DNA of 64,000 bases from Mangrovihabitans endophyticus (GTDB lineage Bacteria > Actinomycetota > Actinomycetes > Mycobacteriales > Micromonosporaceae), in NCBI RefSeq assembly GCF_014646155.1, contig NZ_BMMX01000024.1:1-64000 (forward strand), written 5' to 3'. Of the stretch, positions 8,569 through 23,962 are shown in pieces. Made by a program: the position numbers and the translations under genes. Position 1 is the stretch's first letter. Every line of letters begins with the position of its first letter. The notes under the pieces were generated by a model. That model was not told the DNA's origin and did not search any database. It was given only the letters and a program-made list of their open reading frames with translations.

Positions 8569-9107
8569 GCACGAAAACCAGTCACGCCACCAGGCGTTTA
8601 GAGACACAAAAACGCAATGAGTCCAATCCTAAAGAGGCGCACGAAAACCAGTCACGCCACCAGGCGTTTAGAGACTTCTCCGCATATCATGCAACGTATC
8701 GTGAAAGCGTACGCACGAAAACCAGTCACGCCACCAGGCGTTTAGAGACGGTCATCGTCAGTCCGGTCAGCCGGCCGGGCACCAAGCACGAAAACCAGTC
8801 ACGCCACCAGGCGTTTAGAGACACCTCCTCACCTCATCGTCGAGGGAGGTTCGTGCACGAAAACCAGTCACGCCACCAGGCGTTTAGAGACCCGAGGTGG
8901 TAGCCGGGGGCGAGGGGGCCGGCACGAAAACCAGTCACGCCACCAGGCGTTTAGAGACCCGGTCAGGAGCCAGGTCAGCATCTCGGCCGCCATCAGGCAC
9001 GAAAACCAGTCACGCCACCAGGCGTTTAGAAACAGGAACATGTAGGCGCTGATCACGATCATCGCGACGCGTGCGAAAACCGGTCACGCCACCAGGCGTT
9101 TAGAAAC
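8569..9107 (+). CRISPR. CRISPR array 1: eight 37-base repeats, seven spacers
   Basis: Repeats begin at 8569, 8639, 8713, 8786, 8855, 8922, 8997 and 9071. The first six are identical. The seventh ends TTAGAAAC instead of TTAGAGAC, and the eighth has further changes (GTGCG start, CGGTC). Spacers are 33, 37, 36, 32, 30, 38 and 37 bases. Each repeat holds a 5-base-pair hairpin, ACGCC-ACCA-GGCGT, followed by exactly eight bases (TTAGAGAC), the length of a Cas6-made 5' handle. Decay at the right end means the leader is on the left and transcription is rightward, in line with the cas operon. The array lies directly behind the type III genes and is very likely their crRNA source. Confidence 0.97.
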
Positions 9108-9337
9108 CAGGTTCCATCTCGCCTCACCTCGAAGAAATCCCGTAACGCGTCAACAACGCAACGCGGCGGCCTTCCCAAATCCGAAACCCGCCACGTGAAG
9201 GCTGGCGACATAGGCATATATCAGTCATTTGACAAGTGCTTATTCTCGTGCAGCTAGACAGTTTTCGACTCCAATAAATCTCTGCGAATGAGCTTTGATA
9301 CCCTCTTCCTAAACTCTGCGGATTTGGAGAAATTGGC
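9108..9337 (+). promoter_or_regulatory. Lower-GC spacer region before the ndk-like gene
   Basis: This stretch is clearly less G+C-rich than its surroundings, especially from 9200 to 9337. TTGACA at 9229-9234 and TAGACA at 9255-9260 could be a -35/-10 pair, but the 20-base spacing is long. A purine patch (ttggagaaattggc) precedes the ATG at 9338. The drop in GC marks a junction between the CRISPR locus and the next module. I find no gene here. Confidence 0.35.
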
Positions 9338-9832
9338 ATGGCTGCTGTTGAGCGAACTCTCGTGCTGTTGAAGCCGGACGCGGTCGCCCGAGGGCTCGCG
9401 GGTCGGGTGCTTCAGCGGTTCGAGGACGCCGGCCTGAAGATCGTGGGTACGAAGATGGTGCGGATGGACGCCGAGCTGGCGGCCAAGCACTACTTCGACC
9501 TGGAGGAGCGGTTCGGCAAGTCGGTCTTCGACGTGACCGCGACGTTCATGCAGTCCGGCCCGGTCATCGCCCTGGTCCTGGAGGGCGTCGAGGCCGTCAC
9601 CAACGTGCGCCGGCTCGTGGGTGTCACGTTCCCGAACCAGGCGAACCCCGGCACGATCCGTGGCGACTTCGCGCACACGTCGAAGGCGTACACCGAGGCC
9701 ACGCACACGGTGGCTGCGAACCTCATCCACGCCTCCGGCAACGTGGAGGAGGCCAAGTACGAGGTCGAGCTGTGGTTCTCCGAGTCCGAGATGTTCGACT
9801 ACCAGACCGTGGGCGAGCGGTTCCTTTTCTGA
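9338..9832 (+). CDS. Divergent nucleoside diphosphate kinase
   Basis: 164 residues. The N-terminus ERTLVLLKPDAVARGL carries the KPD motif, RGDFAH supplies the conserved arginine, and NLIHASGNVEEAKYE holds the phosphohistidine (His131) in its normal setting, so the enzyme looks active. It would transfer phosphate between nucleoside di- and triphosphates. It is about 25 residues longer than housekeeping Ndk, with an insertion around 60-66 and a C-terminal tail (SEMFDYQTVGERFLF). The position next to a CRISPR array and an AICE, away from housekeeping genes, suggests an accessory copy. Its stop overlaps the next start by one base (TGATG). Confidence 0.85.
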   Translation: MAAVERTLVLLKPDAVARGLAGRVLQRFEDAGLKIVGTKMVRMDAELAAKHYFDLEERFGKSVFDVTATFMQSGPVIALVLEGVEAVTNVRRLVGVTFPNQANPGTIRGDFAHTSKAYTEATHTVAANLIHASGNVEEAKYEVELWFSESEMFDYQTVGERFLF

Positions 9833-10149
9833 TGGTCGACGAGGAAGCCCCCGCGCGGCCTGAGATCGGCCAGGTCCGCAAGCAGTACGAGGACGAGCGC
9901 TACTTCCAGGACAGTTGGGCGGCGGCGCAGTATGCGTACGCGCTGGCCGTCCGCCTGCGTGAGGTGGGTGAGGTCGACGAGGCCCGCCGGTACGCGAAAG
10001 AGTGCCTGTGGCTCGCCGAGACGCTTCCGGCGAACACCCTCGACGACGTGACCACCGAACAGCAATCGGTCGGCGGGGTGTCGTTGCCGGAGCGGTTCCA
10101 TGACGGCGTGGTCCGGTCCCGGCTCGCGGATCTGCTCACCGCGGCCTGA
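9832..10149 (+). CDS. Hypothetical protein coupled to the Ndk homologue
   Basis: 105 residues, acidic and mainly helical, with two repeats of alternating Ala/Arg helices (QDSWAAAQYAYALAVRLREV and DEARRYAKECLWLAETLP in separate segments) that resemble a single TPR hairpin. No catalytic motif, signal peptide or membrane segment is seen. The one-base overlap with the ndk-like gene implies co-translation and a shared role. I do not recognise the family. It may belong to the cargo end of the adjacent mobile element. Confidence 0.7.
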   Translation: MVDEEAPARPEIGQVRKQYEDERYFQDSWAAAQYAYALAVRLREVGEVDEARRYAKECLWLAETLPANTLDDVTTEQQSVGGVSLPERFHDGVVRSRLADLLTAA

Positions 10150-10193
10150 ACGACAGACGCGCCTGACCGGTCGGGCGGTGTGAGTGCTGGACG

Positions 10194-10604
10194 TCAGCTC
10201 AGGTTGGCGTCCAGGTACTCCTGGACCGGCCCGAAGAACGGGTATGGCACGTGCTCGGCGAGGGTGTCGGTGTCGCACCATTCCACCTCTGCCAGTTCTT
10301 CCTCGTCGGCGGCGTAGGCCGTGCCGTCGAGGTAGTCGCAGGCGACGTACAGCATGGTTCGCCCGGTGTTGGGGTGGACCCTTTCCCCTAGCCGCGTCGC
10401 CGCTTGGACGGTGAGCCCAGTTTCTTCCAGCGTCTCGCGCACGGCGGCCTGTTCGGCCGACTCGCCGGCCTCGACCCCGCCGGCCGGGAACTGCCAGGAC
10501 AACTGGCCTTCCTTGACGCGCCGCCGGACCAGCAAGACTTTGCCGTCGTGGACGATGACGGCGGCGGCGATGGGTGGGCGATCGTCGGTGGTCGGCTGGC
10601 TCAT
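10194..10604 (-). CDS. NUDIX hydrolase
   Basis: 136 residues. A complete NUDIX box is present: GGVEAGESAEQAAVRETLEE and TGL follow the G-x5-E-x7-RE-x2-EE-x-G pattern. It should hydrolyse a nucleoside diphosphate linked to another moiety; the substrate cannot be read from sequence. It is the last gene of the leftward GntR/HTH-NUDIX/NUDIX operon and starts inside the preceding gene (4-base overlap). In pSAM2 the activator Pra is a NUDIX protein that favours excision and replication. This gene or its larger neighbour may be the counterpart. Confidence 0.88.
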   Translation of the reverse strand: MSQPTTDDRPPIAAAVIVHDGKVLLVRRRVKEGQLSWQFPAGGVEAGESAEQAAVRETLEETGLTVQAATRLGERVHPNTGRTMLYVACDYLDGTAYAADEEELAEVEWCDTDTLAEHVPYPFFGPVQEYLDANLS

Positions 10605-11278
10605 GGGTCACCTTCCAGGGCGCGCAGAACAGGCGCGTAGATGCGCTGTCGAGGGATGAAGCGGGTGATATCGGTGCGCGGCGCCCAGAGCGCGCTGAGG
10701 TTCTCGACGACGTCGCGGTTTTCGACCTGGCCGGCGAGGTAGTCGCAGAGGAAGTAGCTGGCGTGGACGCCGGAGAGTGGGTGGACGCGGCTGCCCAGCT
10801 CGGTGCGGACGGTGCAGTGGATGCCGGTTTCGGCGAGGGTTTCGCGGGTGGCGACGGTGGTGGGGTTGGCGCCTGGTTTGACGACGCCGGCCGGGAATTG
10901 CCAGTCGATGCCGCTGGGGTCGGCGTCGCGGCGCTGGACCAGGAGGACCTCGGTGTCGGTGACTACGACGGCGATGGCGACGGTGAGAGCTACGGCGCCG
11001 CCGGCTGCGTTGGCTTCGGCGTCGTCTTCGGCCTTGAGGTGGCGGGCGAAGCGGAGTTTGGCCGGTTCGTCGGCGCGTTCGTAGGCGGTGTCGAGGGCGC
11101 GTTGCAGTTCGGGGCGGATGACGATGTCGGGTCCGCCGGCCCAGGCGGCGATGGTGCGTTTGGCGACGCCGAGTTGGGCGGCCATCTCGTCCTGGGACAT
11201 GCGCAAAGCTGCCTGGAGTGCGGTGGCGTGCCTGCCGGTCCACTGGTCGATGACGGTGTGCCGGGCGGGCTGGCTCAT
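10601..11278 (-). CDS. HTH-NUDIX fusion with a degenerate NUDIX box
   Basis: 225 residues. Residues 15-50 (ATALQAALRMSQDEMAAQLGVAKRTIAAW) form an XRE-like helix-turn-helix. Residues 95-225 form a NUDIX fold. The box reads GVVKPGANPTTVATRETLAE-TG: the first glutamate is alanine and the RE-x2-EE core has only one of its two adjacent glutamates. Catalysis may be lost, leaving a ligand-sensing role coupled to DNA binding. It sits between the GntR regulator (2-base gap) and an intact NUDIX gene, so it is probably part of the element's excision control. The HTH supports regulation; the ligand is unknown. Confidence 0.82.
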   Translation of the reverse strand: MSQPARHTVIDQWTGRHATALQAALRMSQDEMAAQLGVAKRTIAAWAGGPDIVIRPELQRALDTAYERADEPAKLRFARHLKAEDDAEANAAGGAVALTVAIAVVVTDTEVLLVQRRDADPSGIDWQFPAGVVKPGANPTTVATRETLAETGIHCTVRTELGSRVHPLSGVHASYFLCDYLAGQVENRDVVENLSALWAPRTDITRFIPRQRIYAPVLRALEGDP

Positions 11279-11280
11279 GG

Positions 11281-11631
11281 TCAGTCGGTGACCGCGAGGG
11301 TGGTGCCGGCCGGGTAGGTGTCGACGTCGCCGTTGGCTCTGGTGACCGTCACCGCCGCCGTCGAGGTGATCGTGTCGCCGGGGTGGAGGTCGGCGCGGTC
11401 GGGGACCTCGACGACGAAGGTGCCGTGGCCTTGCCGGACTTCGACCAGGCCCTCCGCGCGGAGGACGGCGAGGGCGCGGCGGACAGTTTCGCGGGCGAGG
11501 CCGAATTCGTCGTGGAGATCCTTCTCCGAGGGCATCCGGCGGCCCGGTGATAACTCTCCGCTACGAATGCGATCCCGCAACACGGTCGCGAGCTGCCGGT
11601 ATGCAGCACCTTCGCGATCGGGCGTGATCAT
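11281..11631 (-). CDS. GntR-family repressor (KorSA-like)
   Basis: 116 residues. The N-terminal winged helix-turn-helix is typical GntR: AAYRQLATVLRDRI, then MPSEKDLHDEFGLARETVRRAL and GHGTFV at the wing. The C-terminal part is only about 40 residues, too short for a FadR or HutC ligand domain, as in the short AICE regulators. In pSAM2, KorSA represses pra and itself. Here the gene heads the operon with the two NUDIX genes, which fits the same circuit. CTAG-containing repeats upstream (11640-11684) are candidate autoregulatory operators. Confidence 0.88.
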   Translation of the reverse strand: MITPDREGAAYRQLATVLRDRIRSGELSPGRRMPSEKDLHDEFGLARETVRRALAVLRAEGLVEVRQGHGTFVVEVPDRADLHPGDTITSTAAVTVTRANGDVDTYPAGTTLAVTD

Positions 11632-11639
11632 GCCCTTAC

Positions 11640-11684
11640 TCTAGGTATAGACATGCAGGCGCCTAGTGGCGTATGCGTCTAGAC
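11640..11684. promoter_or_regulatory. Candidate GntR operator region
   Basis: Within 45 bases upstream of the gntR start are TCTAGGTATAGAC (11640-11652), a GCCTAG step (11661-11666) and a perfect 8-base palindrome GTCTAGAC (11677-11684). CTAG is uncommon in this genome type, and the CTAGGTnTAG core recurs in the inverted repeat after the translocase gene at 18933-18943. Binding by the GntR protein is inferred. Confidence 0.5.
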
Positions 11685-11698
11685 GACCTCACGACCAA

Positions 11699-11737
11699 GG
11701 GCCAGCCCAGGTGCATGGCGAGAACCTGGGCTGGCCC
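11699..11737 (-). terminator. Hairpin terminator between the small-gene operon and gntR
   Basis: A perfect 14-base-pair stem (GGGCCAGCCCAGGT at 11699-11712, its complement at 11724-11737) with an 11-base loop. Leftward transcripts from the four small genes (11948-13089) would meet it before the gntR promoter. No strong U-run follows. The rest of the 11632-11947 gap holds no gene that I can support. Confidence 0.65.
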
Positions 11738-11947
11738 CAGCCGACCGCGCCCCGGGGAAGTTGACCGTCAAGCGCGGGAATGACGGTCGTCGGAACGGGT
11801 CGGCGCCTTCCGGGCAGGCAGAGCGAATCGTGGATGCCCACCGGAAGCTCGGAGATATTGATCTGGTTTGCGCCGGCCGACCGAAAGGCGGCTGACACGG
11901 CGCCTCCACTCGACGACGAGCAGGGGCCGGCCTGGCAGTGTGGTCAG

Positions 11948-12238
11948 CTACACCGGCCAACGGGTGTCGGGTGGCTGGATGTCCCTTGCGGTTAACGGCG
12001 CCTCGTTCCAAAACGGCAGCCAGCCCAGGAACCGGCGATGGAGATCGACCAGGAGCAGGTCCGGGCGAGCGTCGGCCGCCTCCATGTATCGCTCGTGCAT
12101 GAAGGCGAGAAGCCTGCCGGGCCGCATCACCTTGGGCAGCGAGTCCTGCGCGACCCGGCACGGCCACGCCTCGGTCGGATCGCAGATCACGCAGTCCTGC
12201 GTGGCGTCGTCCGGAAGGTGATCACCAGGCGCGCTCAT
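11948..12238 (-). CDS. Small Cys-motif protein (WPC family), element-borne
   Basis: 96 residues. An N-terminal CVICDPTEAWPCRVAQD segment shows C-x2-C-x5-W-P-C, a pattern shared with two upstream genes in the same overlapping chain. The middle (FMHERYMEAADARPDLLLVDLHRRFLGWLPFW) is helical and aromatic. I do not recognise the function. The three cysteines could bind zinc. The gene ends the leftward operon; its ATG overlaps the previous stop by 4 bases. Genes of this kind are common as unnamed cargo in AICEs. Confidence 0.7.
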   Translation of the reverse strand: MSAPGDHLPDDATQDCVICDPTEAWPCRVAQDSLPKVMRPGRLLAFMHERYMEAADARPDLLLVDLHRRFLGWLPFWNEAPLTARDIQPPDTRWPV

Positions 12239-12588
12239 CCGTCGTCGCCGTTCCGAACGAGCAGGATGCCGCGCAATTCCTCAGGCGTGGCGCCGTGGAG
12301 TCTCGCCGGCCCGCCGAACGGGCGCCCTCGGCGCCAGGCGTGATAGCCCGCCGGGTACGCGAAGCCCGGAACCTTGTTCTCGTGAAGGTAGGCGACCGTC
12401 CAGCCGGGAAACTCGTCCTCCAGAGCCTCGCAGGCGGCGACGCTCTCGGGTGGATAGCCCAGACGTTCGGCGAGGATGGGGCGGTTCTTGTGCGCCAGCT
12501 CCGCCCGTTCCCGGGCCAGCTCCTCCTCATGCCTGCGGTGGGCGTCCTCGTCGTAGCTGCCGACCCACGCCGGCCAGTCCCCCGTCAT
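12235..12588 (-). CDS. Hypothetical element-borne protein
   Basis: 117 residues from the ATG that overlaps the stop of the upstream gene (12585). The N-terminal 40 residues are a charged helix (DEDAHRRHEEELARERAELAHK). The rest is mixed, with ERLGYPPESVAACEALEDEF and FPGW-like aromatic segments, and it lacks the C-x2-C...WPC motif of its neighbours. No known domain was recognised. Overlap at both ends shows that it is translated as part of the four-gene chain. Confidence 0.65.
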   Translation of the reverse strand: MTGDWPAWVGSYDEDAHRRHEEELARERAELAHKNRPILAERLGYPPESVAACEALEDEFPGWTVAYLHENKVPGFAYPAGYHAWRRGRPFGGPARLHGATPEELRGILLVRNGDDG

Positions 12589-12857
12589 GACGTGAGCGCG
12601 ATCCGCGCGAGGGTGGACTGCAACCGGTCCCGCACCCTGCTCGGCACGTCGTGTTCGACCAAGTCGACGTTCTTGATGACGTCGTCGAGGCAGTCCCAGT
12701 AACACAGCTTGACGTAGGCAGCCAGCCCGAGAGGATCGTCGGCGAAGCGCAGCGCGACGGCATCCAGCGCGGCGTCGCACGGCCACGGCGCTCCGCAGCC
12801 CAAGCAATCCCACCCTGGCCGCACCGGCGCGTGCAGCAGTGATGCGGGATCACTCAT
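12585..12857 (-). CDS. Small Cys-motif protein (WPC family), element-borne
   Basis: 90 residues. The segment WDCLGCGAPWPCDAALD has C-x2-C-x4-WPC, followed by a helical domain (ALRFADDPLGLAAYVKLCYWDCLDDVI). It resembles the products at 11948 and 12850 in motif but not in length. Three closely placed cysteines suggest a zinc site. It overlaps the next gene downstream by 4 bases and the upstream gene by 8. Function unknown. Confidence 0.68.
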   Translation of the reverse strand: MSDPASLLHAPVRPGWDCLGCGAPWPCDAALDAVALRFADDPLGLAAYVKLCYWDCLDDVIKNVDLVEHDVPSRVRDRLQSTLARIALTS

Positions 12858-13089
12858 GACGATCAGCCGCGCTGGCGCGGAACCTCTGCGCGGGGGTGAG
12901 GTCGACGACCCGGCTGTGCTGCCCCGGATAGATCTGGGTCGGCCATCGGCTCCAGTCCGGCTCCGGTCGTTTGGCGATCTCGGCCCTGACCGCTGCGTCG
13001 CGGGCGTCCACGCACGGCCACAGTGCGTTGCACACGCATCTCTTCGCGCGGAGCACCTGCCACCAGCGTCGGTTGCGGGGTCTGTGCAT
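12850..13089 (-). CDS. Small Cys-motif protein (WPC family), first gene of the chain
   Basis: 79 residues from the ATG at 13089; a GTG at 13110 is an alternative start adding seven residues. CVCNALWPCVDARDAAVRAEI carries the C-x-C-x3-WPC version of the motif. The C-terminus is basic and polar, with no membrane segment. It would be the first gene of the leftward chain, divergent from the XRE regulator at 13289, so its promoter lies among the TGCACGT repeats near 13178-13201. Function unknown. Confidence 0.55.
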   Translation of the reverse strand: MHRPRNRRWWQVLRAKRCVCNALWPCVDARDAAVRAEIAKRPEPDWSRWPTQIYPGQHSRVVDLTPAQRFRASAADRHE

Positions 13090-13177
13090 GCGAATCACCC
13101 ACTCAGTCACGAACCGGCCGACCTGCACGTCTGCGCCACGGGGGCCGCAAAAAGTGCACGCCTTGTGTGACCTAGAA

Positions 13178-13201
13178 TGCACGTACAGCCACGTACGTGC
13201 A
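13178..13201. promoter_or_regulatory. TGCACGTAC inverted repeat upstream of the XRE regulator
   Basis: TGCACGTAC (13178-13186) and GTACGTGCA (13193-13201) form a perfect 9-base inverted repeat with a 6-base gap in the divergent promoter region. Another GTGCACG lies at 13154-13160. The same TGCACGT core forms perfect palindromes in the promoters of the second DUF5753/DUF397 locus at 55819 and 57268, which suggests an operator for this regulator class. Confidence 0.5.
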
Positions 13202-13288
13202 AGCCTTGCAAATCCAGTCTCCGCAAACGCGAGGTCGTGTGCATGCGGGGCCATGCGACCGTGCACACTCAGGGGAAGGATCGAAGGG

Positions 13289-14152
13289 ATGCACGAGGTG
13301 GCTGGACGCAAGACGCCGACGATTCGGCTACGCCGCTTGGCCGGCGAGCTGAAACGCCTCCGCATCGCCGCCGCGCTGACGGTCGAACGAGTCGCCGAAG
13401 AGACCGGCCTCGACCAGTCCTCGCTCTACCGAGTCGAGCGCGCCCTGAACAAGCCGCAGCGCAGGACCGTCACCACCCTGCTCAACCTCTATGACGTGCC
13501 GAAAGACCGTCAGGAGACGCTGCTCGGCTGGCTCCGAGACTCCGGCCAGCAGGGCTGGTTCCGGGCGTACGAGCCGTACCTGCCGGAGCAGTACCAGACC
13601 TACATCAGCTTCGAGTACGACGCCGAACGCCTGCGCAACTACGAGAACATGTTCGTCCCGGGGCTGCTCCAGACCGAGGACTACGCACGGGCCGTCGTCG
13701 AAGGCGTCGGGCTGAACCTGGGCGACGAAGACGTACAGCGGCGAGTCGAGGTCCGGGTGCAACGCCAAGCCGTCCTGCACCGGCCGGCGCCCATGCAACT
13801 TCACGCCGTGGTCAGCGAAGCGGCGATCCGCTGCACCGTCGGCGGTCCGGCAGTCATGCGCGCCCAGCTCGACCGGCTGGCCCAAGCGGCGAGCCAGCCG
13901 AACGTGCGCCTACAGGTCATCCCGTTCACCGCCGGAGCCCACCCCGGCCTGGTCGGCTCGTTCGTCGTCATGGACTTCGCCGACCCGTTCGACTCCCCGC
14001 TGGTCTACACGGACGGGCCACAGGGCGACGCCTTCTTGGAAACTCAAGAGGAGGTGGCGCGGTTCGCGGCTATGTTCGATCGCACGGCCGGCTTCGCGCT
14101 GAGCCCGGCGCAGTCGAAGAAACTCATCCAAGACGCGGCCAAGGCCGTATAG
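13289..14152 (+). CDS. XRE-family regulator with DUF5753 domain
   Basis: 287 residues from the ATG at 13289, preceded by GAAGGATCGAAGGG. An N-terminal helix-turn-helix (LKRLRIAAALTVERVAEETG, then DQSSLYRVERA) is followed by the DUF5753 domain: FEYDAERLRNYENMFVPGLLQTEDYARAV is its hallmark, and the C-terminal half has VRLQVIPF and GSFVVMDFAD. Such proteins pair with DUF397 proteins in actinomycetes and control development or antibiotic production. Here the DUF397 partner follows after 14 bases. In an AICE the pair may act as element regulator or as cargo affecting the host. It resembles the second copy at 56248-57141. Confidence 0.92.
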   Translation: MHEVAGRKTPTIRLRRLAGELKRLRIAAALTVERVAEETGLDQSSLYRVERALNKPQRRTVTTLLNLYDVPKDRQETLLGWLRDSGQQGWFRAYEPYLPEQYQTYISFEYDAERLRNYENMFVPGLLQTEDYARAVVEGVGLNLGDEDVQRRVEVRVQRQAVLHRPAPMQLHAVVSEAAIRCTVGGPAVMRAQLDRLAQAASQPNVRLQVIPFTAGAHPGLVGSFVVMDFADPFDSPLVYTDGPQGDAFLETQEEVARFAAMFDRTAGFALSPAQSKKLIQDAAKAV

Positions 14153-14166
14153 CAGGGAGGTTCGCC

Positions 14167-14361
14167 GTGGACCTGAGCAGCCTGACGTGGCGGAAGTCGA
14201 GCCGTTCCAGCGCGAACGGCCAGTGCGTCGAGGTCGCCATCACCGACGCCGAGGTCCTGGTCCGCGACACCAAAGACCGCAGCCAGGCCCCGCATCGCTA
14301 CACCCGGGCCGAGTGGGAAGCGTTCATCGGCGGCGTGAAGGACGGCGAGTTCGACCTCTGA
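14167..14361 (+). CDS. DUF397 protein, partner of the XRE regulator
   Basis: 64 residues with a GTG start behind a clear GGGAGG site. It has the canonical DUF397 layout: LTWRKSSRSSANGQCVEVA, then VLVRDTKD, then FIGGVKDGEFDL at the end. DUF397 proteins are small partners that antagonise DUF5753 XRE regulators. Together with the upstream gene it forms a two-gene unit closed by the hairpin at 14403-14436. Confidence 0.93.
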   Translation: MDLSSLTWRKSSRSSANGQCVEVAITDAEVLVRDTKDRSQAPHRYTRAEWEAFIGGVKDGEFDL

Positions 14362-14402
14362 CTTGCGGTGCAACCGCCTTGCTTAGGGTTCGGTTTCACA
14401 GA

Positions 14403-14436
14403 GTCGAGCCCCATCCGGGTACGGGTGGGGCTCGAC
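14403..14436 (+). terminator. Terminator after the XRE/DUF397 unit
   Basis: A 14-base-pair stem (GTCGAGCCCCATCC against GGGTGGGGCTCGAC, one G-T pair) with a 6-base loop, followed by a T-rich stretch (ctctttggctttca). It lies 41 bases after the DUF397 stop. The remaining bases to 14672 hold no gene that I can support. Confidence 0.8.
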
Positions 14437-14672
14437 CTCTTTGGCTTTCATTCAGCGCATAGATCGACGTGTACCCGATCGCCTCATTTCGGAAGCTCGA
14501 CCGGCACCGACCCCGTCTGGCCCGACTTCCACGCGCCGGACGGCGACCGCCCCCGGAGCCTTTGACCGCCCACATGCATCGGAAGCGCATCGGAACTACA
14601 TCGACGATGGTTGTTGCCTCATCGGCGGCGCACGGGTTTCCCGGTTGACTGGTTCTCACCAGCAAGCAGCGC

Positions 14673-14930
14673 CTACGAAGGAGGTGAATCGATGTCCCGC
14701 TCGACCTCGACCGACCCGCGACGCGGCCGGCTCGCCTGCCACTGCCGCACCGCCGCCGGCCGCCACGCCGGGGACCGGCCGAACATCCGGTCCGCGGCCG
14801 GCGCCTGCCCACGTGACACGTAGGCGGCCCAGGTGACACGACTGATCGGCGCCCCCACCGCACGCAGGAACGCCAGCACGTCCTCGGTCGTCCACCAGTC
14901 CTCTGGCAGGTCACCGGTCGCCTCGGCCAT
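14673..14930 (-). CDS. Small winged-helix DNA-binding protein (excisionase-like)
   Basis: 85 residues from the ATG at 14930. WWTTEDVLAFLRAVGAPISR, then TWAAYVSRGQAPAADRMF, then WRPAAVRQWQASRPRRG follow the MerR/excisionase-like layout found next to AICE spread genes: a recognition helix, a wing with the ARGQAP turn, and a C-terminal WRxxxVxxW helix. It probably binds the double palindrome just upstream (15025-15075) and controls the divergent spread/transfer operon. It is distinct from the excisionase next to the integrase. Confidence 0.72.
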   Translation of the reverse strand: MAEATGDLPEDWWTTEDVLAFLRAVGAPISRVTWAAYVSRGQAPAADRMFGRSPAWRPAAVRQWQASRPRRGSVEVERDIDSPPS

Positions 14931-15024
14931 CACCGGCGAGGGTACGCGACCCCACGGCTCCACCCCTCGCAACCTCACACCCTGACTTTCCTCGCCCCGC
15001 CCGCCGATCATTCGCTTGCTCGAA

Positions 15025-15075
15025 TACAACGCCGAGTTGTACGGCCCGCTTCATGCGAACACAACGCGACGTTGT
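15025..15075. promoter_or_regulatory. Two copies of the palindrome ACAAC-N5-GTTGT
   Basis: TACAAC-GCCGA-GTTGTA lies at 15025-15041 and ACAAC-GCGAC-GTTGT at 15061-15075. The starts of the shared 15-base core are 35 bases apart. They sit in the divergent region between the leftward HTH gene (14930) and the rightward transfer operon (15115), an ideal position for operators that control conjugation genes. Confidence 0.65.
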
Positions 15076-15114
15076 ACTCGGCGGCGGGCGGCACCCGATC
15101 CCGGAAGGACCCCC

Positions 15115-15354
15115 GTGTTCCGCATCCCGCTGCCCGACGAACCGACCCCGGCCCACCTCGACGCCATCGAGCGCGAACAGCGCCTCCTCGAAGCCGAGAT
15201 CGCCCTGGTCGACGCCGAGATCCGCTTCCTCACCGCCGAGCCCACCCCGACCCAGCTCGACTGGCGCCGGCTACGCCGCGCCCAGAACCGCGTCCTGCGC
15301 GAGCTGGTCGCCCTGGCCGAGCGCTACCTCCGCTCGATCGACGAGGCGGCCTGA
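15115..15354 (+). CDS. DUF6284-like small protein, first gene of the transfer operon
   Basis: 79 residues with a GTG start behind GGAAGGA. It is almost wholly helical: PTPAHLDAIEREQRLLEAEIALVD, then PTQLDWRRLRRAQNRVLRELVALAERYL in shorter segments. The LDWRRLRRAQxRVLRE pattern is typical of a small unnamed family (DUF6284) that occurs at the head of AICE transfer regions. Its role is unknown. It follows the double operator and precedes the spread genes, so it should be expressed with them. Confidence 0.68.
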   Translation: MFRIPLPDEPTPAHLDAIEREQRLLEAEIALVDAEIRFLTAEPTPTQLDWRRLRRAQNRVLRELVALAERYLRSIDEAA

Positions 15355-15418
15355 TGACCGCCCCCGACCAGGCAGCCGCCGCCGTGACGGCACGGCCCGG
15401 ACCCCACAGGAGCCAGCC

Positions 15419-16278: not shown

Positions 16279-16295
16279 CCAAATCGGAGCCCACC

Positions 16296-16637
16296 ATGCC
16301 CGACACCACCGACACCATCACCAAGGCCCTCACCTCGCTCGGAGCCACGGCGGACGAGATCGCCGAAACCCTCGTGATCGGCGGATGGCGCGGGCTGCGC
16401 AACGACGCCGGAGCCTGCCCGATCTCCCGCTACCTGACCTCGGTCCTGCCGGGCGCCGACGACGTGGTGACCGGCACCGCGCAGCTCACCGTCCTCAGCA
16501 GGCACGCGGAGCTGGACGTCGACCTTCCGCCCGCCGTCGAGCAGTTCGTCCGCGCGTTCGACGACGGCGGCTTCCCCGACCTGGTCGTGACCGTCACCGA
16601 CGCCCAGGGCGACCCGATCGACGACCTCACCCGCTAG
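16296..16637 (+). CDS. Hypothetical element-borne protein
   Basis: 113 residues, acidic. Helices at the start (ITKALTSLGATADEIAETLV) are followed by GWRGLRNDAGACPISRYLTSVLPGADDV, a pattern seen in small unnamed AICE and phage proteins of actinomycetes with one conserved Cys in CPISRYL. No catalytic site recognised. It lies between the SpdB-like gene (17-base gap) and the translocase, separated from the latter by a strong hairpin. Confidence 0.65.
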   Translation: MPDTTDTITKALTSLGATADEIAETLVIGGWRGLRNDAGACPISRYLTSVLPGADDVVTGTAQLTVLSRHAELDVDLPPAVEQFVRAFDDGGFPDLVVTVTDAQGDPIDDLTR

Positions 16638-16643
16638 CTCTGC

Positions 16644-16689
16644 CCGGGGCGCGGCCAACCGGCCTCGCAAACCACCGGCCGCGCCCCGG
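16644..16689. terminator. Strong hairpin between the spread genes and the translocase gene
   Basis: A perfect 13-base-pair stem (CCGGGGCGCGGCC at 16644-16656, its complement at 16677-16689) with a 20-base loop. It starts 7 bases after the stop of the preceding gene and ends 40 bases before the translocase ATG. It may attenuate transcription or protect the upstream mRNA end. No U-run is present. Confidence 0.55.
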
Positions 16690-16729
16690 CCCCCGATCGG
16701 CCCGCAGACCTCCCGGAGGAACCCCCATC

Positions 16730-18898
16730 ATGGCAACCCCGAACCCCGACGACGGCTTCGACTGGAACCAGGCCGAGGCGGACGTCAACCGCGTCGTCGA
16801 CCTCGGCGCCGAACGCCGCAACCGCCAGCCGGACGGCTGGTCCACCGACATCGACGACGAACACGACGACCTCGGCGACACCCCCATCCCCGTCGACCCC
16901 ACCGACAGCAGCTCCGCGACGAGTTGGCCGCAGGCCGCCTCGACGCGCCGTCCGATCGTTCCGGCCTGGCTGCGCTCCAAGGCCGAGGCCGTCGCCCTCG
17001 CCCGGTGGATCGTCGGCCACTACACCCACGTCACCGCCTACCACTTGACCCGCACGCCGCTCTACGCCGGACGGCTGGCCGTCCGCTCGCCGCGCGGCGC
17101 CGTCCGCATGATCGGCGGCACCGCCCGCTGGGTGACCGACGCCGAAGGACTACCCGTCCGCCTCGCCGCCGTTCGCCGCGAAGACGCCCACGAATACCTG
17201 CGCCTGTCGCGGCAACGCGACGGCCGTGTCCGCCTGCGCACCCTGCTGCTGCTCGCCACGCTCACCGTCGGCGCGGTCGGCGTGCTGTTCCTGCTCGTCG
17301 CCACACCCCGATGGGCCTGGTACACCACCCTCGCCGGCCTGATCGGCGTGCTCGGCCTCATCGGCACCACACCGGACAAGCCGCTGATGGACGTCGCCGC
17401 CGTCAAACCCCGCGTCCGCAAACTGACCGCCGACGTGCTGATGCGCGCCTTCCTCGCCGCCGGACTGTGCAAGCCCGACAACCCGATCACCTTCCCGATG
17501 CCGATCATGCGCGACGGCCCCGGCTGGCGAGCCGTCATCGACCTGCCGTACGGCACCAAGGCCGACACCGCCATCAAGAAGCGCACCGACCTCGCCGCCG
17601 GCCTCGACCTCGACGAGGTCCAGGTCTGGCCCGAACGGGTCCGCGGCACCGCCGGCTCCGCGCGACGCCTCGCCCTGTGGGTCGCCGACGAGGACCCGTA
17701 CGCCAAGCCGTCCGGCCTGTGGCCGCTGCTCGCCAAGGGCGGCGTGGACATCTTCGAGGCGTTCCCATTCGGCGAGGACCAGCGCGGACGGCCCGTCGGG
17801 CTATTGCTGATGTTCACGTCCCTGCTCGTCGGCGCCATTCCCCGGATGGGCAAGACGTTCGCCGCTCGCCTGCCCGCCCTCGCCTGCGCCCTCGATCCGC
17901 TGGTCGAGCTGCACATCTACGACGGCAAGGGCGGCCAGGACTGGCGCGCGTTCGAGCCGATCGCCCACCGGGTCGGCTTCGGCATCCGCGACGACGTCGT
18001 CCTCGACCTGGTCGAGGACTTGCGCGCCCTGGTCGCCGACATGAACCGCCGCTACGACACCATCGCCACCCTGCCCGCCGACCTGTGCGCCGAGTCGAAG
18101 GTCACCCGCGACATCGCCGCCCGCCGCGCCCTCAAGCTGTGGCCGGTCCTGGTCTCGATCGACGAGTTCCAGCGCTACAGCGGCCACTCGCAGCACGGCG
18201 ACGAGATCGTCACCCTGCTCACCGAGCTGTGCAAGGTCGGCCCGTCCGTCGGCATCATGATCAGCCTCGCCACCCAGAAGCCCGACGGCAAAGCCGTCCC
18301 GACCGACCTGCGCGACAACATCGGCACCCGCTTCGCCCTCAAGACGATGACCTGGCAGTCGTCCGAGGCCGTGCTGGGCGCCGGTTCCTACACCGCCGGC
18401 CACGACTCGTCCCGCTTCCAGCGCGCCCACAAGGGGGTCGGCATCCTGCTCGGCGCCGACGACTCCGGCTCGGTCGAGGACGCCGTCACCGTGCGCACCA
18501 ACCGCACCCCGCTGGCCGACATCGACACCGTCATCCGTCGCGCCCACGCCCTGCGCACCGACGCCGGAGCCATCACCGGCCAGGCCGCCGGCGACCCCGG
18601 CGCCGACAGCCGGGCCGGCTCTCTGCTCGACGACATCCTCACCGTCGTCCCTGCCAGCGAACCCAAGGTCTGGTCCGAAACCGTCGCCGCCCGCCTCGCC
18701 GAGCTACGCCCCGAGGTCTACGGCGGCTGGAAACCCGAACAGGTCGCCGCCGCTCTCAAGCCCTACGGCATCCCGGTCGGCCGCCAGGTCTGGAGCACCG
18801 ACCCGGCCACCGGCGACAAGGCCAACCGCAAGGGCATCCACCGCGACGACATCACCGCCGCAGTGACCCGCCGTAACCAACATCGCCGCGCCGCCTGA
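16730..18898 (+). CDS. FtsK/SpoIIIE-type conjugal DNA translocase (TraB/TraSA-like)
   Basis: 722 residues from the ATG at 16730 (ribosome site GGAGGAAC). An acidic N-terminus precedes two membrane helices (about 172-190 and 198-215). The motor domain carries Walker A GAIPRMGKT (368-376) and Walker B VLVSIDEF (473-480), followed by the LATQKPDGKAVPTDLRDNI element typical of FtsK-like Tra proteins. The C-terminal 80 residues (KVWSETVAARLAELRP...) look like the winged-helix domain that reads transfer-site repeats. It would pump double-stranded element DNA between mycelial cells as a hexamer. It is the main transfer gene of the AICE and appears intact. Confidence 0.93.
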   Translation: MATPNPDDGFDWNQAEADVNRVVDLGAERRNRQPDGWSTDIDDEHDDLGDTPIPVDPTDSSSATSWPQAASTRRPIVPAWLRSKAEAVALARWIVGHYTHVTAYHLTRTPLYAGRLAVRSPRGAVRMIGGTARWVTDAEGLPVRLAAVRREDAHEYLRLSRQRDGRVRLRTLLLLATLTVGAVGVLFLLVATPRWAWYTTLAGLIGVLGLIGTTPDKPLMDVAAVKPRVRKLTADVLMRAFLAAGLCKPDNPITFPMPIMRDGPGWRAVIDLPYGTKADTAIKKRTDLAAGLDLDEVQVWPERVRGTAGSARRLALWVADEDPYAKPSGLWPLLAKGGVDIFEAFPFGEDQRGRPVGLLLMFTSLLVGAIPRMGKTFAARLPALACALDPLVELHIYDGKGGQDWRAFEPIAHRVGFGIRDDVVLDLVEDLRALVADMNRRYDTIATLPADLCAESKVTRDIAARRALKLWPVLVSIDEFQRYSGHSQHGDEIVTLLTELCKVGPSVGIMISLATQKPDGKAVPTDLRDNIGTRFALKTMTWQSSEAVLGAGSYTAGHDSSRFQRAHKGVGILLGADDSGSVEDAVTVRTNRTPLADIDTVIRRAHALRTDAGAITGQAAGDPGADSRAGSLLDDILTVVPASEPKVWSETVAARLAELRPEVYGGWKPEQVAAALKPYGIPVGRQVWSTDPATGDKANRKGIHRDDITAAVTRRNQHRRAA

Positions 18899-18908
18899 CG
18901 CTAGCGCG

Positions 18909-18946
18909 CCGCTAGACCTAGCCCCGTCACCCGCTAGGTCTAGCGG
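18909..18946. repeat. CTAG-rich 14-base inverted repeat after the translocase gene
   Basis: CCGCTAGACCTAGC (18909-18922) and its exact complement (18933-18946) are separated by 10 bases. Seven CTAG tetramers fall within 18899-18990. The arm contains CTAGGTCTAG, close to the CTAGGTATAG upstream of gntR. It could be an operator for the GntR repressor, a terminator-like hairpin, or part of a transfer or replication site. Confidence 0.6.
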
Positions 18947-19038
18947 CACCGCTAGCCCCGGATACCGCACCTGATCAGGCCGCTAGCGCTCTATCCCAGA
19001 TCTCGCACACCCCTCGACAACGCCGCCTGGAGGACGTT

Positions 19039-19290
19039 GTGGACTCCCTCGCCATCGCCGCTAGCCTGCTCTGCCCCGCCGCCACCCTCGTCACCCTCGG
19101 CTACGCCGCCGTCTGTACGGCGTCCCCGTTCGGCCGTTGCCGTCGGTGTCGCGGCCTCGGCCGCACCGTCAGCCGATCCGGCCGGCGCGTCCTCCTCTGC
19201 CGCCACTGCGACGGCGCCGGCATCCGCATCCGCACCGGCCGCCACCTCTTCCACCTCGCCGCCCGCATCCACCGCGACGGCACCCACTGA
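19039..19290 (+). CDS. Membrane-anchored zinc-ribbon protein, element-borne
   Basis: 83 residues with a GTG start behind GGAGG. One membrane helix (residues 3-25) is followed by CRRCRGLGRTVSR and CRHCDGAGIRIRTGRHL, two C-x2-C-x-G-x-G units like the DnaJ central zinc domain. Proteins of this kind are frequent between tra and rep genes of AICEs and may be spread proteins. Function not established. The downstream replication gene starts 15 bases later. Confidence 0.7.
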   Translation: MDSLAIAASLLCPAATLVTLGYAAVCTASPFGRCRRCRGLGRTVSRSGRRVLLCRHCDGAGIRIRTGRHLFHLAARIHRDGTH

Positions 19291-19304
19291 CGAGGCCCAT
19301 TACC

Positions 19305-21247
19305 GTGACCCGCACACCGCCCCATGACCCCGCCGCCGAGCGGGCCGTCATCGGCGCCGCCCTGCTCAACCCGGAACTGCTCGGCGACCTCGCCGACCAG
19401 CTCCAGGCCGACGACTTCTACCGCCCCGCCCACGCCGCCCTGTGGCACGTCCTGCTCGACCTGCACACCGCCGGCACCGCCGCCGACCCGATCACCGTCA
19501 CCGCCCACCTGGCCGAGGCCGGCGACCTCGCCCGCGTCGGCGCCGCCGCCTACCTGCACACCCTGATCAGCGGCGTCCCCAGCGCCGCCAACGCCGGCCA
19601 CTACGCCCGCATCGTCGCCGAGCACGCCCGCCGCCGCGACGTCGCCGACCTTGGCGTCCGCCTCACCCACCTCGCCGAGACCGGCGCCGACACCAGCGAC
19701 CTACTCACCCACGGCCGCGCCCTGCTCGACACCGCACCGGCCAAACCCTGGCCCGCACCCATCTCGCTCACGAACCGCACCGCACCCCGCCCGTTCCCCG
19801 TCGACGCCCTACCCGGCTGGCTCGCCGACATGGTCGCCGCCGTCGCCGAGTTCACCCAGACGCCCACCGACCTGGCCGGCTGCATCGCGCTGGCCGCCCT
19901 GTCCACCGCCGCCGGAGGCCGCGCCGAGATCGAGATCCGCGGCTCCTGGCGCGAACCAGCCAACCTGTTCACCGTCGTCGTCCTGCCGCCTGGCTCCCGC
20001 AAGTCCGCCGTGTTCGCCGCGATGATCCGCCCCCTGCTCGCCGCCGAGGCCGCCCTCATCGACCGCACCAAACCGGCCATCGTCGAAGCCGAACTCGCCC
20101 TGCGCGTCGCCACCAAAGCCGCCGACCGCGCAGCCACCACCGCCGCCAACGCCACCAACGGCCGGGACCGGCTGCTCGCCGACGCCACCGCCGCCGCGAT
20201 GACCGCCGACGCCATCACCGTCCCGCCGCTGCCGCGCCTGGTCGCCGACGACGTCACCAGCGAACAAGCCGCCACCCTGCTCGCCGAACAGGGCGGACGC
20301 CTCGCCGTCCTCTCCCCGGAAGGAGGCATCTTCGCCACCCTCGCCGGCCGCTACTCCGGCACCCCGAACCTCGAAGTCTTCCTCAAAGGCCACGCCGGAG
20401 ACCTGCTGCGCGTCGACCGCCGCTCCCGACCCGCCGAACACGTCGACCGGCCTGCCCTCACCCTCGGCCTCGCCGTGCAACCCGAAGTGCTGCGCGACAT
20501 CGCCGCCATGCCCGGCTTCCGCGGCAAGGGCCTGCTCGCCCGCCTGCTGTTCGCCGTGCCCGCCAACACCGTCGGCCGCCGCCGCATCGGCACCGACCCC
20601 ATCCCGACCCTCGTCGCCGACACCTACGCCGACCGGCTCCGCACCCTCGTCCTCGGCCTGGCCGACCACCGCGACCCGCTCGTCCTCGCGATCACCCCGC
20701 AGGCCAACGAACGAATGCTCGACATCGAACGCGACGTCGAACCCCGCCTCGCCCCGTCCGGCACCTGGGCGCACATCGTCGACTGGGGCAGCAAGTACGC
20801 CGGAGCCGTCGCCCGCATCGCCGCCCTGCTCCACCTCGCCGCGCACGGCCCCCGGCACCCACCAGGACCGATCGACGCCGCCACCCTCGACCAGGCCGCC
20901 ACCCTCGGCGCCTACTCGCCGACCACGCCGCCACCGCCTTCGACGACATGGGCGCCGACCCGCTCGTCGACGACGCCCGGCACATCCTCGCCTGGATCGA
21001 ACGCACCACCAGCGACCGCTTCACCAAACGCGACCTGTTCACCGCCCTGTCCCGAGGCCGGTTCCGCAAGGCCGCCGACCTCGACCCGGTCCTCAACCTC
21101 CTGGTCGGCCACGGCTACCTGCACCCCGCCCCGGCACCGGAACGCCGAGGCGCCGGCCGCGCCCCCTCGCCGGCCTGGCTCGTCCACCCCGACCTCACCC
21201 GACCCGCCGCCACGGTCGCCCCGATCACCGCCGGCCGCGCCTCATGA
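19305..21247 (+). pseudogene. DnaB-N/DUF3987 replication protein with an apparent frameshift
   Basis: The GTG at 19305 opens a product whose first 110 residues form a DnaB-like N-terminal domain (AAERAVIGAALLNPELLGDL...FYRPAHAAL). A DUF3987 helicase/primase-type domain follows, with PGSRKSAVFAAMIRPLL in the P-loop position. Coding potential then leaves this frame near 20913-20916 and continues in the next one as LADHAATAFDDMGADPLVDDARHILAW to a stop at 21247. One base seems missing at CCTACTCGCC, where CCTACCTCGCC would restore TYR-LEU-ALA-ASP. In the unshifted frame the chain loses its C-terminal winged-helix region and reads into the excisionase frame. This is either a true disabling mutation or a sequencing error. 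The role would be initiation of AICE replication. Confidence 0.75.
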
Positions 21248-21371
21248 TCACGCCGCGCAATCCGCAGAACCGCAGAACCCCGCCCAGGCCGCCATTGCGC
21301 GGATAGCGCGGATTCCGCGGACCCACCCACGCACCGCGCCGCTCCACCAACCCCTCCGAAAGGTCCCGCAG

Positions 21372-21608
21372 ATGACAACCGATCCGCGCGGCACCGCCGA
21401 CGAGATCACCGAACCCACCCGGCTCATCCTCACCATCGAGCAGGCCGCCCGCCGCCTCGGCATCGGCCGCACCCTCATGTACTCCCTCGTCATGACCGGC
21501 AAGATCGAATCCGTCACCATCGGCCGGCTCCGCCGCGTCCCGGTCGAAGCCCTCAGCGACTACGTCGTCAAGCTCCGCCAAACCCAGCACGACGACCAGG
21601 CCGCGTAG
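21372..21608 (+). CDS. xis: Excisionase (MerR-type winged helix)
   Basis: 78 residues. The core LTIEQAARRLGIGRTLMYSLVMTGKIESVTIGRLRRVPVEALSDYV is the standard excisionase fold, cited here as consecutive parts: LTIEQAARRLGIGRT (helix-turn-helix), TGKIESVTIG (wing), RRVPVEALSDYV (last helix). It would bend attachment-site DNA and direct the integrase to excision. The start is the ATG at 21372. The gene ends 12 bases before the integrase, the usual xis-int arrangement. Confidence 0.88.
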   Translation: MTTDPRGTADEITEPTRLILTIEQAARRLGIGRTLMYSLVMTGKIESVTIGRLRRVPVEALSDYVVKLRQTQHDDQAA

Positions 21609-21620
21609 GGGAGGGCAACT

Positions 21621-22847
21621 ATGGGACGCAGGCCAAACGGCGCATCGAGCATCTACAAGGGCGGCGACGGTGTCTGGCACGGCCGGGTCACCGTCGGCGT
21701 GAAGGACGACGGCACGCCGGACCGCCGCCACGTCCGAGGCAAGTCCGAGGCCGTCGTCACCCGCAAAGTCCGGGTGCTGGAGCGCGACCGCGACGGCGGT
21801 ACCGTCCGCAAGCCCGGCCAGAACTGGACCGTGGCGAAGTGGCTCACCCACTGGTTCGAGAACATCGCCGCGCCGAACGTGCGGGAGAACACCGCAGCCG
21901 GGTACCGGGTGGCGGTCAACGTCCACCTGATCCCCGGCCTCGGCGCCCACCGGCTGGACAAGTTGACACCCGAGCACATCGAGAAGCTGACCCGCAAGAT
22001 GCAGGTGAACGGCAGCGCGGCAGGCACCGCCCACCAGGCACACCGCACCCTGCGGACGGCCTTGAACGAGGCGGTCCGCCGCGGCCACCTCACCCAGAAC
22101 CCGGCACGGCTGGCGAAAGCACCTCGGCTTGAGGACGAGGAGATCGAGCCGTACACCGTCGCCGAGGTCCAACGCCTGCTGATGGCGGCCGGAGCACGCC
22201 GGAACTCGGCACGCTGGGCCGTCGCTCTCGCCCTGGGACTGCGGCAGGGCGAAGCGCTCGGTTTGAAATGGACCGACATCGACCTGGACGAGGGGACACT
22301 GGTGGTCCGCCGCGCCCGACAACGGCCCAAGTGGCGGCACGGCTGTACCGAGCCGTGCGGCCGAAAGATGGCCGGGCACTGCCCCGACCGGCATCCGCTT
22401 CGGAAGGAGACGGCCGACACCAAGTCGAGGGCCGGCCGCCGCCGGGTCGGTCTGCCGGACCAGCTCGTCGTCCTGCTCCGGCAGCACCGCGAGACACAGG
22501 ACTCCGAGCGGAAGGCAGCGCGCCAGCTCTGGACCGAAGGCGGCTGGCTGTTCACGACGCCGACGGGCGGCCCGCTCAATCCGCGCAGCGACTACACCGA
22601 ATGGAAACGGCTCCTGGCCGACGCGAAACTGCGAGACGGCCGACTACACGACGCCCGGCACACCGCAGCCACGGTGCTTCTCGTCCTCGACGTGAACGAA
22701 CGCGCCGTCATGGGAATCATGGGCTGGTCGAATTCCGGCATGACCCGCCGCTATCAACACCTGACCGCCGAGGTCCGCCGGGACGTCGCCAGCAGGATCG
22801 ACAACCTCCTGTGGTCACCCCACGCTTCGAGTACTCGAAGTGGGTGA
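21621..22847 (+). CDS. int: Tyrosine site-specific integrase
   Basis: 408 residues with a GGGAGG ribosome site. An N-terminal AP2-like arm-binding region (GASSIYKGGDGVWHGRVTVG), a core-binding SAM-like domain (about 70-160) and a catalytic domain are present. The catalytic residues are Arg208 (LRQGEALGL), His343 and Arg346 with His347 (LHDARHT), and nucleophile Tyr378 (TRRYQHL). A Cys/His insertion (HGCTEPCGRKMAGHCPDRH) in the catalytic domain is usual for AICE integrases. It should recombine attP with a host attB, often a tRNA 3' end. The nearest tRNA is tRNA-Ser at 23748, about 900 bases away with CRISPR array 2 between, so the attachment site is uncertain. Confidence 0.95.
   Translation: MGRRPNGASSIYKGGDGVWHGRVTVGVKDDGTPDRRHVRGKSEAVVTRKVRVLERDRDGGTVRKPGQNWTVAKWLTHWFENIAAPNVRENTAAGYRVAVNVHLIPGLGAHRLDKLTPEHIEKLTRKMQVNGSAAGTAHQAHRTLRTALNEAVRRGHLTQNPARLAKAPRLEDEEIEPYTVAEVQRLLMAAGARRNSARWAVALALGLRQGEALGLKWTDIDLDEGTLVVRRARQRPKWRHGCTEPCGRKMAGHCPDRHPLRKETADTKSRAGRRRVGLPDQLVVLLRQHRETQDSERKAARQLWTEGGWLFTTPTGGPLNPRSDYTEWKRLLADAKLRDGRLHDARHTAATVLLVLDVNERAVMGIMGWSNSGMTRRYQHLTAEVRRDVASRIDNLLWSPHASSTRSG
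22826..22841. repeat. Perfect 16-base palindrome at the integrase 3' end
   Basis: CTTCGAGTACTCGAAG lies inside the last codons of int. Such a site could be an arm-type or core site of the attachment region or a weak hairpin. Its match elsewhere was not found by eye. Confidence 0.45.
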
Positions 22848-22895
22848 ACAGCCATTCACGGGTCGTTATCCGGTGACGACGGTCCCGCCTACCTG

Positions 22896-23361
22896 ACCAT
22901 TACGGAGCCGGGCCCCGGCGGCCGGGAATGCCGGCGACCGACTCCACGTCACCATTCGTTGCTACGGAGCCCGGCCTTGGCGGCCGGGAAGTGGCCGGGA
23001 TCAACGCTGCCCTGGCCGACTTGCAGACCGTCGCTACGGAGCCCGGCCTTGGCGGCTGGGAAGAGAAGGTGCCGATCAAGTTCGTGATCGAGACCCTGCT
23101 GTCGCTATGGAGCCCGGCCTTAGCGGCCGGGAAGAGCACGATCTACCTCAACAGCCAGGTCCGGATCACCACCGAGTCGCTACGGAGCCCGGCCTTGGCG
23201 GCCGGGAAGAGGACACCGCTACCTACATCTACGACGCCGGACTGACCTGGTCGCTACGGAGCCCGGCCTTGGCGGCCGGGAAGAGCGGCTCCGGAGTCCG
23301 TCGTCGAAGCGTGGGCGACCTGGCTGTCGCTACGGAGCCCGGCCTTGGCGGTCGGGAAGAG
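22896..23361 (-). CRISPR. CRISPR array 2: seven 36-base repeats of a second repeat type
   Basis: Repeats start at 22896 (strongly degenerate), 22958, 23030, 23101, 23176, 23250 and 23326. The consensus on the + strand runs from GTCGCTACGGAG through CCCGGCC-TTGGC-GGCCGGG (a 7-base-pair hairpin) to AAGAG. Spacers are 26 (next to the degenerate repeat), 36, 35, 39, 38 and 40 bases. Decay at the left end implies that the leader is on the right and that transcription runs leftward. The repeat shares no clear similarity with array 1 and no cas gene stands beside it, so it is an orphan within this window. It lies 48 bases behind the AICE integrase gene. Confidence 0.95.
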
Positions 23362-23695: not shown

Positions 23696-23736
23696 GCGAA
23701 CGCCCGGCAGCCCGGACCGGGCTGCCGGGCGTTCGC
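23696..23736 (-). terminator. Perfect 18-base-pair terminator hairpin behind tRNA-Ser
   Basis: Left arm 23696-23713 (GCGAACGCCCGGCAGCCC), loop GGACC, right arm 23719-23736, with no mismatch. It starts 11 bases beyond the tRNA 3' end on the minus strand and should end the tRNA transcript. It also separates the tRNA from leftward CRISPR transcription. Confidence 0.85.
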
Positions 23737-23747
23737 CCTGCTCATGG

Positions 23748-23834: not shown

Positions 23835-23962
23835 GCGAAGTAGGTTACCTGACGGCTCCACCGTTGCGCCGCCGGGTTACCCGGGCGCGTACGCACCGGC
23901 CCCGAACTGGCACGATGGCACTCGGCGCGAAGTGATCAGGCGAGACGAGACGGGGTATCGGC

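Follow-up and report, generated by a model that had tools for sequence, protein, structure and literature searches.

The window analysed here, the first 64,000 bases of contig C24 (81,893 bases) in the draft genome of Mangrovihabitans endophyticus (7.58 Mb, 220 contigs), contains an integrated element resembling the actinomycete integrative and conjugative elements (AICEs). The element lies between two arrays of clustered regularly interspaced short palindromic repeats (CRISPR). The left array, array 1, borders cas genes, and the right array, array 2, is located next to the integrase gene of the element with no cas genes nearby. The question raised by this locus is whether array 2 belongs to the element and, if so, by which Cas proteins it might be served. 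As described below, array 2 is probably a type I-G array with a leader but no cas genes, which an AICE-like element targeting tRNA-Ser carries as cargo in the stretch from its integrase gene to its right attachment site (attR). The features on which this reading is based are as follows.

21621-22847, plus strand: tyrosine integrase (Phage_integrase, PF00589, 1.6e-19)
22896-23361, minus strand: array 2, six 36-nt type I-G repeats and one degenerate copy
23362-23551, minus strand: array 2 leader, homologous to the type I-G leaders of contig C72 of the same genome and of genome G043
23671-23688, plus strand: paired motif TGAGAC-N6-TGAGAC, exact, single copy in contig C24
23745-23834, minus strand: tRNA-Ser(CGA), the attachment target, with its 3' part duplicated in relatives

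The right end of the element was located by means of a survey of 90 integrase loci, including the window, of which 30 were derived from contigs of genus-group genomes and 60 were matches contributed by 57 of the 354 genomes of the family. Ten of the 90 show no tRNA in the stretch examined; one of these, L128 of genome G049, has a tRNA-Ser in the longer stretch L057. Sixty-five of the remaining 80 have distinct flanks, again including the window, and the counts were run on the other 64. In all 64 the integrase gene is followed by a tRNA gene on the opposite strand, which in 56 cases is a tRNA-Ser. Of the 64 loci, 56 have the paired motif, with at most one mismatch, no more than 130 bp ahead of the tRNA (51 of them exact), and the eight misses correspond to three tRNA-Phe and five tRNA-Ser loci. 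When counted on either strand and with the window included, the motif is present in 57 of 65 loci. The control consisted of 29 tRNA-Ser(CGA) loci of ~1.5 kb each, the best matches from 66 other genomes of the genus. The motif is found in none of the 26 that lack such an integrase and in all three that have one. A gapped alignment of the attR arm proved non-discriminating, and the motif test was used instead. Given its position and conservation, the paired motif presumably represents the arm sites of the integrase at the element's right end. Because the motif at 23671 is farther right than array 2, the array is placed between the integrase gene and that end.

The attachment core is delineated by the duplicated 3' part of tRNA-Ser in relatives, whose matches in the window begin at about 23696-23725 and extend to 23803. 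An additional, incomplete copy of tRNA-Ser was found in 5 of the 66 other genus genomes. The copies in G006, G009, and G049 are separated by ~14-16 kb with integrase homologues in between, and they share a different continuation beyond the core. The distance from the end of the integrase gene to the tRNA is ~0.1 kb in G006 and G009, and in G049 the interval holds ~2.6 kb of other DNA. The tRNA-Ser block of the window (23667-27850) is inverted or rearranged with respect to its neighbors in G006, G009, G010, G024, and G049, and it is collinear with that of G035. A first-pass annotation of this DNA had called for a search for paired attachment repeats; the right end is supported beside tRNA-Ser, and the second repeat was not found in the organism's own genome but is present in relatives. 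The same annotation offered two readings of array 2. That the array travels on the element agrees with its position, given that the right end formed by the paired motif and the tRNA-Ser core is located to the right of it. That the element inserted into a CRISPR-rich island at tRNA-Ser is unsupported for array 2.

The six repeats of array 2 start at 22958, 23030, 23101, 23176, 23250, and 23326, with the degenerate copy at 22896-22931. Of the six spacers, five are 35-40 nt in length and one is 26 nt. The earlier description of 36-base repeats beginning 48 bases after the integrase gene holds if the degenerate copy is included (the integrase stop is at 22847), with the refinement that the leader is on the right. 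The array 2 repeat contains a 7-bp stem (CCCGGCC/GGCCGGG), and the whole-transcript fold is more stable than those of shuffled sequences (z -2.55), as expected from such stems. When the stretch adjoining array 2 on the right is aligned with the leaders of the two C72 arrays and of the G043 array, the scores are 35, 27, and 24, respectively; shuffled sequences (300 per comparison) reach maxima of 15-17, and the opposite flank of the array scores 8-9. On the basis of this alignment, the reading direction of array 2 runs along the minus strand, from the attR side towards the integrase gene, which is thus faced by the old end of the array rather than by its leader. Repeat and leader both resemble those accompanying I-G cas genes, which makes array 2 a type I-G array. 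It can also be classed as an orphan array in that it lies inside the element without adjoining cas genes: no cas match was observed among the genes scanned from 9.3 kb to the integrase, and the cas genes at 1501-8368, which may themselves be part of the element, are of another type, namely type III.

A search of the genome for cas genes accompanied by an array 2-like repeat, also suggested earlier, led to contig C72. Its I-G operon, flanked by two arrays, encodes Cas7g, Csb2, Cas3g, a Cas3-extension protein, Cas4g-1g, and Cas2, and is apparently complete as judged from these gene matches. Cognate cas genes that could serve array 2 in trans are therefore present in the same genome. Over 36 positions, the array 2 repeat differs from those of the C72 arrays by 4 and 5 and from that of G043 by 3. 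At a threshold of three mismatches the repeat was found in only 2 of 250 genomes, namely the organism's own, where all six copies belong to array 2, and G043, where it occurs on contig C46 beside genes for Cas7g, Csb2, Cas3g, a Cas8g-like Cas3-extension protein, and Cas4-1g. The tRNA-Ser of G043 is on a different contig, C50. The repeat pattern gave no matches in IMG/VR. The proposal that array 2 employs host Cas proteins is thus plausible, given this operon and repeats that depart from those of its arrays by 4 or 5 bases in 36, although such use is hypothetical. The first-pass annotation had also named two circumstances that together would speak for an old chromosomal array: an attR before 22896, which is not the case, and cognate cas genes elsewhere in the genome, which do exist.

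The host I-G proteins are the obvious machinery for array 2. If the array is active, the leader next to attR would drive leftward transcription, convergent with the integrase gene, and the transcript would be cut by host Csb2. The resulting CRISPR RNAs (crRNAs) would arm the host I-G effector and Cas3, the latter destroying DNA. Host Cas4-1g/Cas2 could add spacers to the array, and the array would move upon excision of the element.

The remainder of the element, together with the genes between it and array 1, reads as follows.

9338-9832, plus strand: nucleoside diphosphate kinase, between array 1 and the element core
within 9338-10604, plus strand: small TPR-like protein (profile matches)
within 9338-10604, minus strand: Nudix protein (profile matches)
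10601-11278, minus strand: helix-turn-helix (HTH)-Nudix (Pif-like) protein, 82% identical to that of the related element in G049
12971-14152, plus strand: HTH/DUF5753 regulator (profile match)
16385-18898, plus strand: FtsK/SpoIIIE-like Tra (phrog_1358, 6.5e-24; EccCa, 1.5e-7)
19137-21608, plus strand: replication protein with DnaB-N and DUF3987 (Pfam) and an excisionase-type HTH at the C-terminus

The leftmost gene clearly common to the window and G049 elements is that encoding the HTH-Nudix protein. Membership of the 9338-10604 genes in the element is uncertain: the nucleoside diphosphate kinase and the TPR-like protein have no matches in 35 compared loci, most of which cover only 10 kb upstream of the integrase gene, and the Nudix protein of this block has matches in 2 of the 35. 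Tra has matches in 19 of the 35 loci; it shows no PF01580 or other Pfam match at E 0.01 and no match in the PDB. An AICE is characterized by a tyrosine or serine integrase, of which the element has the former, by a Tra with an FtsK/SpoIIIE domain (PF01580), by insertion into a tRNA gene between direct repeats, and by a replication protein of the RepSA, RepAM (DUF3631), or Prim-Pol type (PMC3218068), whereas Pfam reveals DnaB-N and DUF3987 here. Given a Tra without a PF01580 match and a replication protein outside the types in PMC3218068, the element is referred to as AICE-like rather than as an AICE.

To the left lies a type III locus with array 1.

202-1698, minus strand: CARF/SAVED-TM-type membrane protein, ancillary to the type III locus (PADLOC CARF 2.2e-76, SAVED_TM 2.2e-68)
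1501-8368, plus strand: type III-D-like effector genes encoding a TIGR03986 RAMP, Cas10, Csm3/Cas7-like, Csx10/Cas5-like, Cas7-like RAMP, and Cas11 proteins (profile matches)
8569-9107, plus strand: array 1, eight 37-nt type III-like repeats

Among the effector genes, the NCBIfam cut-off is passed only by TIGR03986, and the open frame at 202-1698 probably starts too far upstream. A Cas6-like start read by eye on the minus strand at 1-200 was set aside, its 66 residues having no PADLOC match. The repeats of array 1 start at 8569, 8639, 8713, 8786, 8855, 8922, 8997, and 9071. The final two are variant, and the leader is for this reason probably on the cas side. The array 1 repeat folds weakly, unlike that of array 2, and the two are unrelated. 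The earlier picture of an AICE-like element between two arrays with unrelated repeats, the left one of 37-base repeats bordering cas genes, is accordingly confirmed by the repeat comparison and the gene matches, the cas genes being type III-D-like. Recurring 16-mers in CRISPR-like runs number 33 in the window, whereas none occur in any of 20 Markov shuffles. CRISPR loci are plentiful in the genome, with contigs C72, C67, and C78 carrying them in addition to C24. Those on C67 (L085; 30-nt repeats) and C78 (L086; 29-nt repeats) each show a Cas1 match, and we take them to resemble type I-E.

In the surveyed relatives, the integrase gene ends less than 300 bp from the tRNA in 43 of the 64 loci, and in the other 21 the gap is 800 bp or more, so that a slot for extra DNA is common. 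Varied cargo genes occupy the interval in L057, L093, L096, L099, L110, L118, L132, and L170. Of eight cargo proteins compared with PADLOC, one matches the candidate defence family PDC-M30A strongly (1e-44), one matches the candidate family PDC-M06B weakly (4.2e-7), and six have no match; Pfam identifies DUF4231 and DUF6414 in two. These matches are too few to claim the interval as a defence slot. In two Micromonospora elements (L096:9310-9473 and L112:6904-7067), direct and inverted CTCCGCATCTCCGCAA-like copies are clustered upstream of the integrase gene, and they are possibly replication iterons.

A number of observations weigh against array 2 as mobile and usable cargo, and they bear on the rival explanations in different ways. 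Four of the six repeats are altered, with a stem pair lost at 23326 and 23030, such that the leader-proximal repeat is one of the two with a broken stem. Array 2 looks old and little renewed, and repeat alteration, as a sign of age, argues against its present use. By comparison, the two C72 arrays have 21 consensus repeats out of 25 and 15 out of 19, and the G043 array has 9 out of 11. No convincing protospacer was found among neighboring loci, phages, plasmids, the 354 family genomes, or IMG/VR. The neighboring loci gave short partial matches at most. The best spacer-internal phage match covers 25 of 27 nt in the tape-measure gene of a Streptomyces phage (E 0.4), and the best plasmid match (E 0.003) straddles a repeat. 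Matches with E of 0.01 or less were obtained in at least 136 of the family genomes, mostly weak or repeat-borne. Fifteen were inspected, and the best shows 6 mismatches over 35 positions as compared to 13-17 for shuffles, but the places were preselected for a match, so that the comparison does not amount to a test. For five spacers, the codon-wobble patterns each gave no match in IMG/VR. To probe competition between elements, five spacers were compared with 95 related-locus sequences; the best reaches 25/36, with shuffled sets at 22-28. The spacers of array 1, the C72 I-G arrays, and C78 likewise fall inside the shuffled maxima for related elements, and those of the C72 type III array (23 versus a maximum of 22) and C67 (27 versus 26), each one identity over the shuffles, were not counted as matches. 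It is quite conceivable, at somewhat under an even chance, that array 2 rides on the element as a decaying relic that yields no useful crRNAs. The altered repeats, the broken stems, and the missing targets all fit such a relic, but the leader is still recognizable, two repeats are perfect, and four retain the stem. Furthermore, no array was detected in the interval of any other surveyed locus by a search for three exact 16-mers at a spacing of 52-85 or an I-G-like repeat with at most nine mismatches, which very short or decayed arrays could escape. The mobility of array 2 is for that reason drawn from a single genome. The empty intervals would also be expected if array 2 had entered the integrated copy by recombination in this lineage, after insertion, and had never travelled. 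Other I-G leader-array units are available on C72, and the array 2 leader scores nearer to those of C72 (35 and 27) than to that of G043 (24). The repeat, however, is nearer to that of another species, G043 (3 differences), than to those of C72 (4 and 5), and such an entry is considered rather unlikely.

The left attachment site (attL) was likewise not observed, either in the window by seeds and BLAST or in the genome by BLAST. Core and arm patterns gave nothing convincing in C24, C72, C84, and C86 and the core alone in C67 and C78, and a genome-wide pattern search yielded 21 matches with two or fewer mismatches, none exact, as compared to 7 for the control. Comparison with relatives places the chromosomal left flank on contig C86, which shows no attachment sequence. 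When scaled from the 14.3-kb G049 element, attL is estimated to lie near 8.6-9.5 kb. With no attL found in the assembly, a complete, excisable element is at most presumed, and array 1 and the type III-D genes may or may not belong to it. With the two ends not both in view and the genome so rich in CRISPR loci, array 2 might be envisioned as an old chromosomal array next to tRNA-Ser, to the left of which the element inserted. This is highly improbable. The right-end motif, specific to integrase-bearing sites, lies to the right of the array, which strongly disfavors such an arrangement, and only 1 of 249 other genomes (G043) has the repeat at three mismatches or fewer, and not on its tRNA-Ser contig. 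A composite island at tRNA-Ser, comprising the element, array 2, array 1 with the type III-D genes, and perhaps the C72 I-G locus, is unlikely, though less so. It would account for the failure to find attL at its expected place and for a left flank on C86, with further DNA in between. Moreover, the end of C72 (L084, 16035-16282) contains four type III repeats that closely resemble those of array 1. Nothing was found to connect C72 with C24, however, the common repeats may reflect mere sharing of Cas proteins, and related elements with two known ends measure only ~14-16 kb. Array 2 as cargo between the integrase gene and attR is still considered the probable arrangement.

Tyrosine integrase near attP, a Nudix gene, and a size class of 11-17 kb are shared with the AICEs pACPL of Actinoplanes sp. 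SE50/110 and pSAM2, and integration at a tRNA 3' end and an FtsK-like Tra are probably shared as well (PMC3364876, PMC3218068). By contrast, pACPL employs tRNA-Pro and RepSA (PMC3364876, PMC3218068), whereas the present element combines tRNA-Ser with a DnaB-N/DUF3987 replication protein and bears a CRISPR array beside attR. The CRISPR-bearing integrative and conjugative element (ICE) Fcci3350 is of the type IV secretion system type (PMC3218068), unlike this element with its FtsK-like Tra. No report of an AICE-borne CRISPR array was encountered in the literature searched, a weak absence in that subscription journals were thinly covered.

Cas-less arrays on mobile elements are nevertheless a known phenomenon, and array 2 would appear to be a further instance, with a putative function. 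Orphan arrays of plasmids are likewise cas-less, are shorter than cas-linked arrays, and have been proposed to use host Cas proteins in trans (PMC9071438). Array 2 differs from them in its integrated AICE-like carrier, its I-G subtype, its leader, and its placement between the integrase gene and attR. Spacers are also found on the ICEs and integrative and mobilizable elements of ESKAPE bacteria, where they are said to target mostly prophages and other such elements (PMC9841420). Those integrated conjugative-type elements are defined by a relaxase and an integrase, whereas an FtsK-like Tra and spacers without assignable targets are found here. The mini-arrays of phages and archaeal viruses, with one or two spacers and host-identical repeats, are mostly aimed at related viruses (PMC11656645). 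Array 2 is similarly cas-less on a mobile element and possibly exploits host Cas proteins. It departs from them, however, in having six spacers, a leader, and repeats that differ from the host's at 4 or 5 of 36 positions, and the similarity of its spacers to related elements stays within the range of shuffled controls. The term "mini-array" in the first-pass annotation was thus a loose one.

A broader and more doubtful proposal is that the AICE-like family uses the integrase-attR interval as a plug-in slot, which here would hold a portable I-G guide cassette for the I-G machinery of any new host. If so, the element would gain an immune repertoire for less than 1 kb of DNA and without cas genes. 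The present case is valuable in that a cas-less array occurs in a conjugative-type element for which both the right end and the cognate cas operon of the host have been located. The paired motif beside tRNA-Ser also offers an easy way to recognize elements of this family and their cargo slot. Were crRNAs made from array 2, guides could pass from one actinomycete to another with no need for accompanying cas genes.

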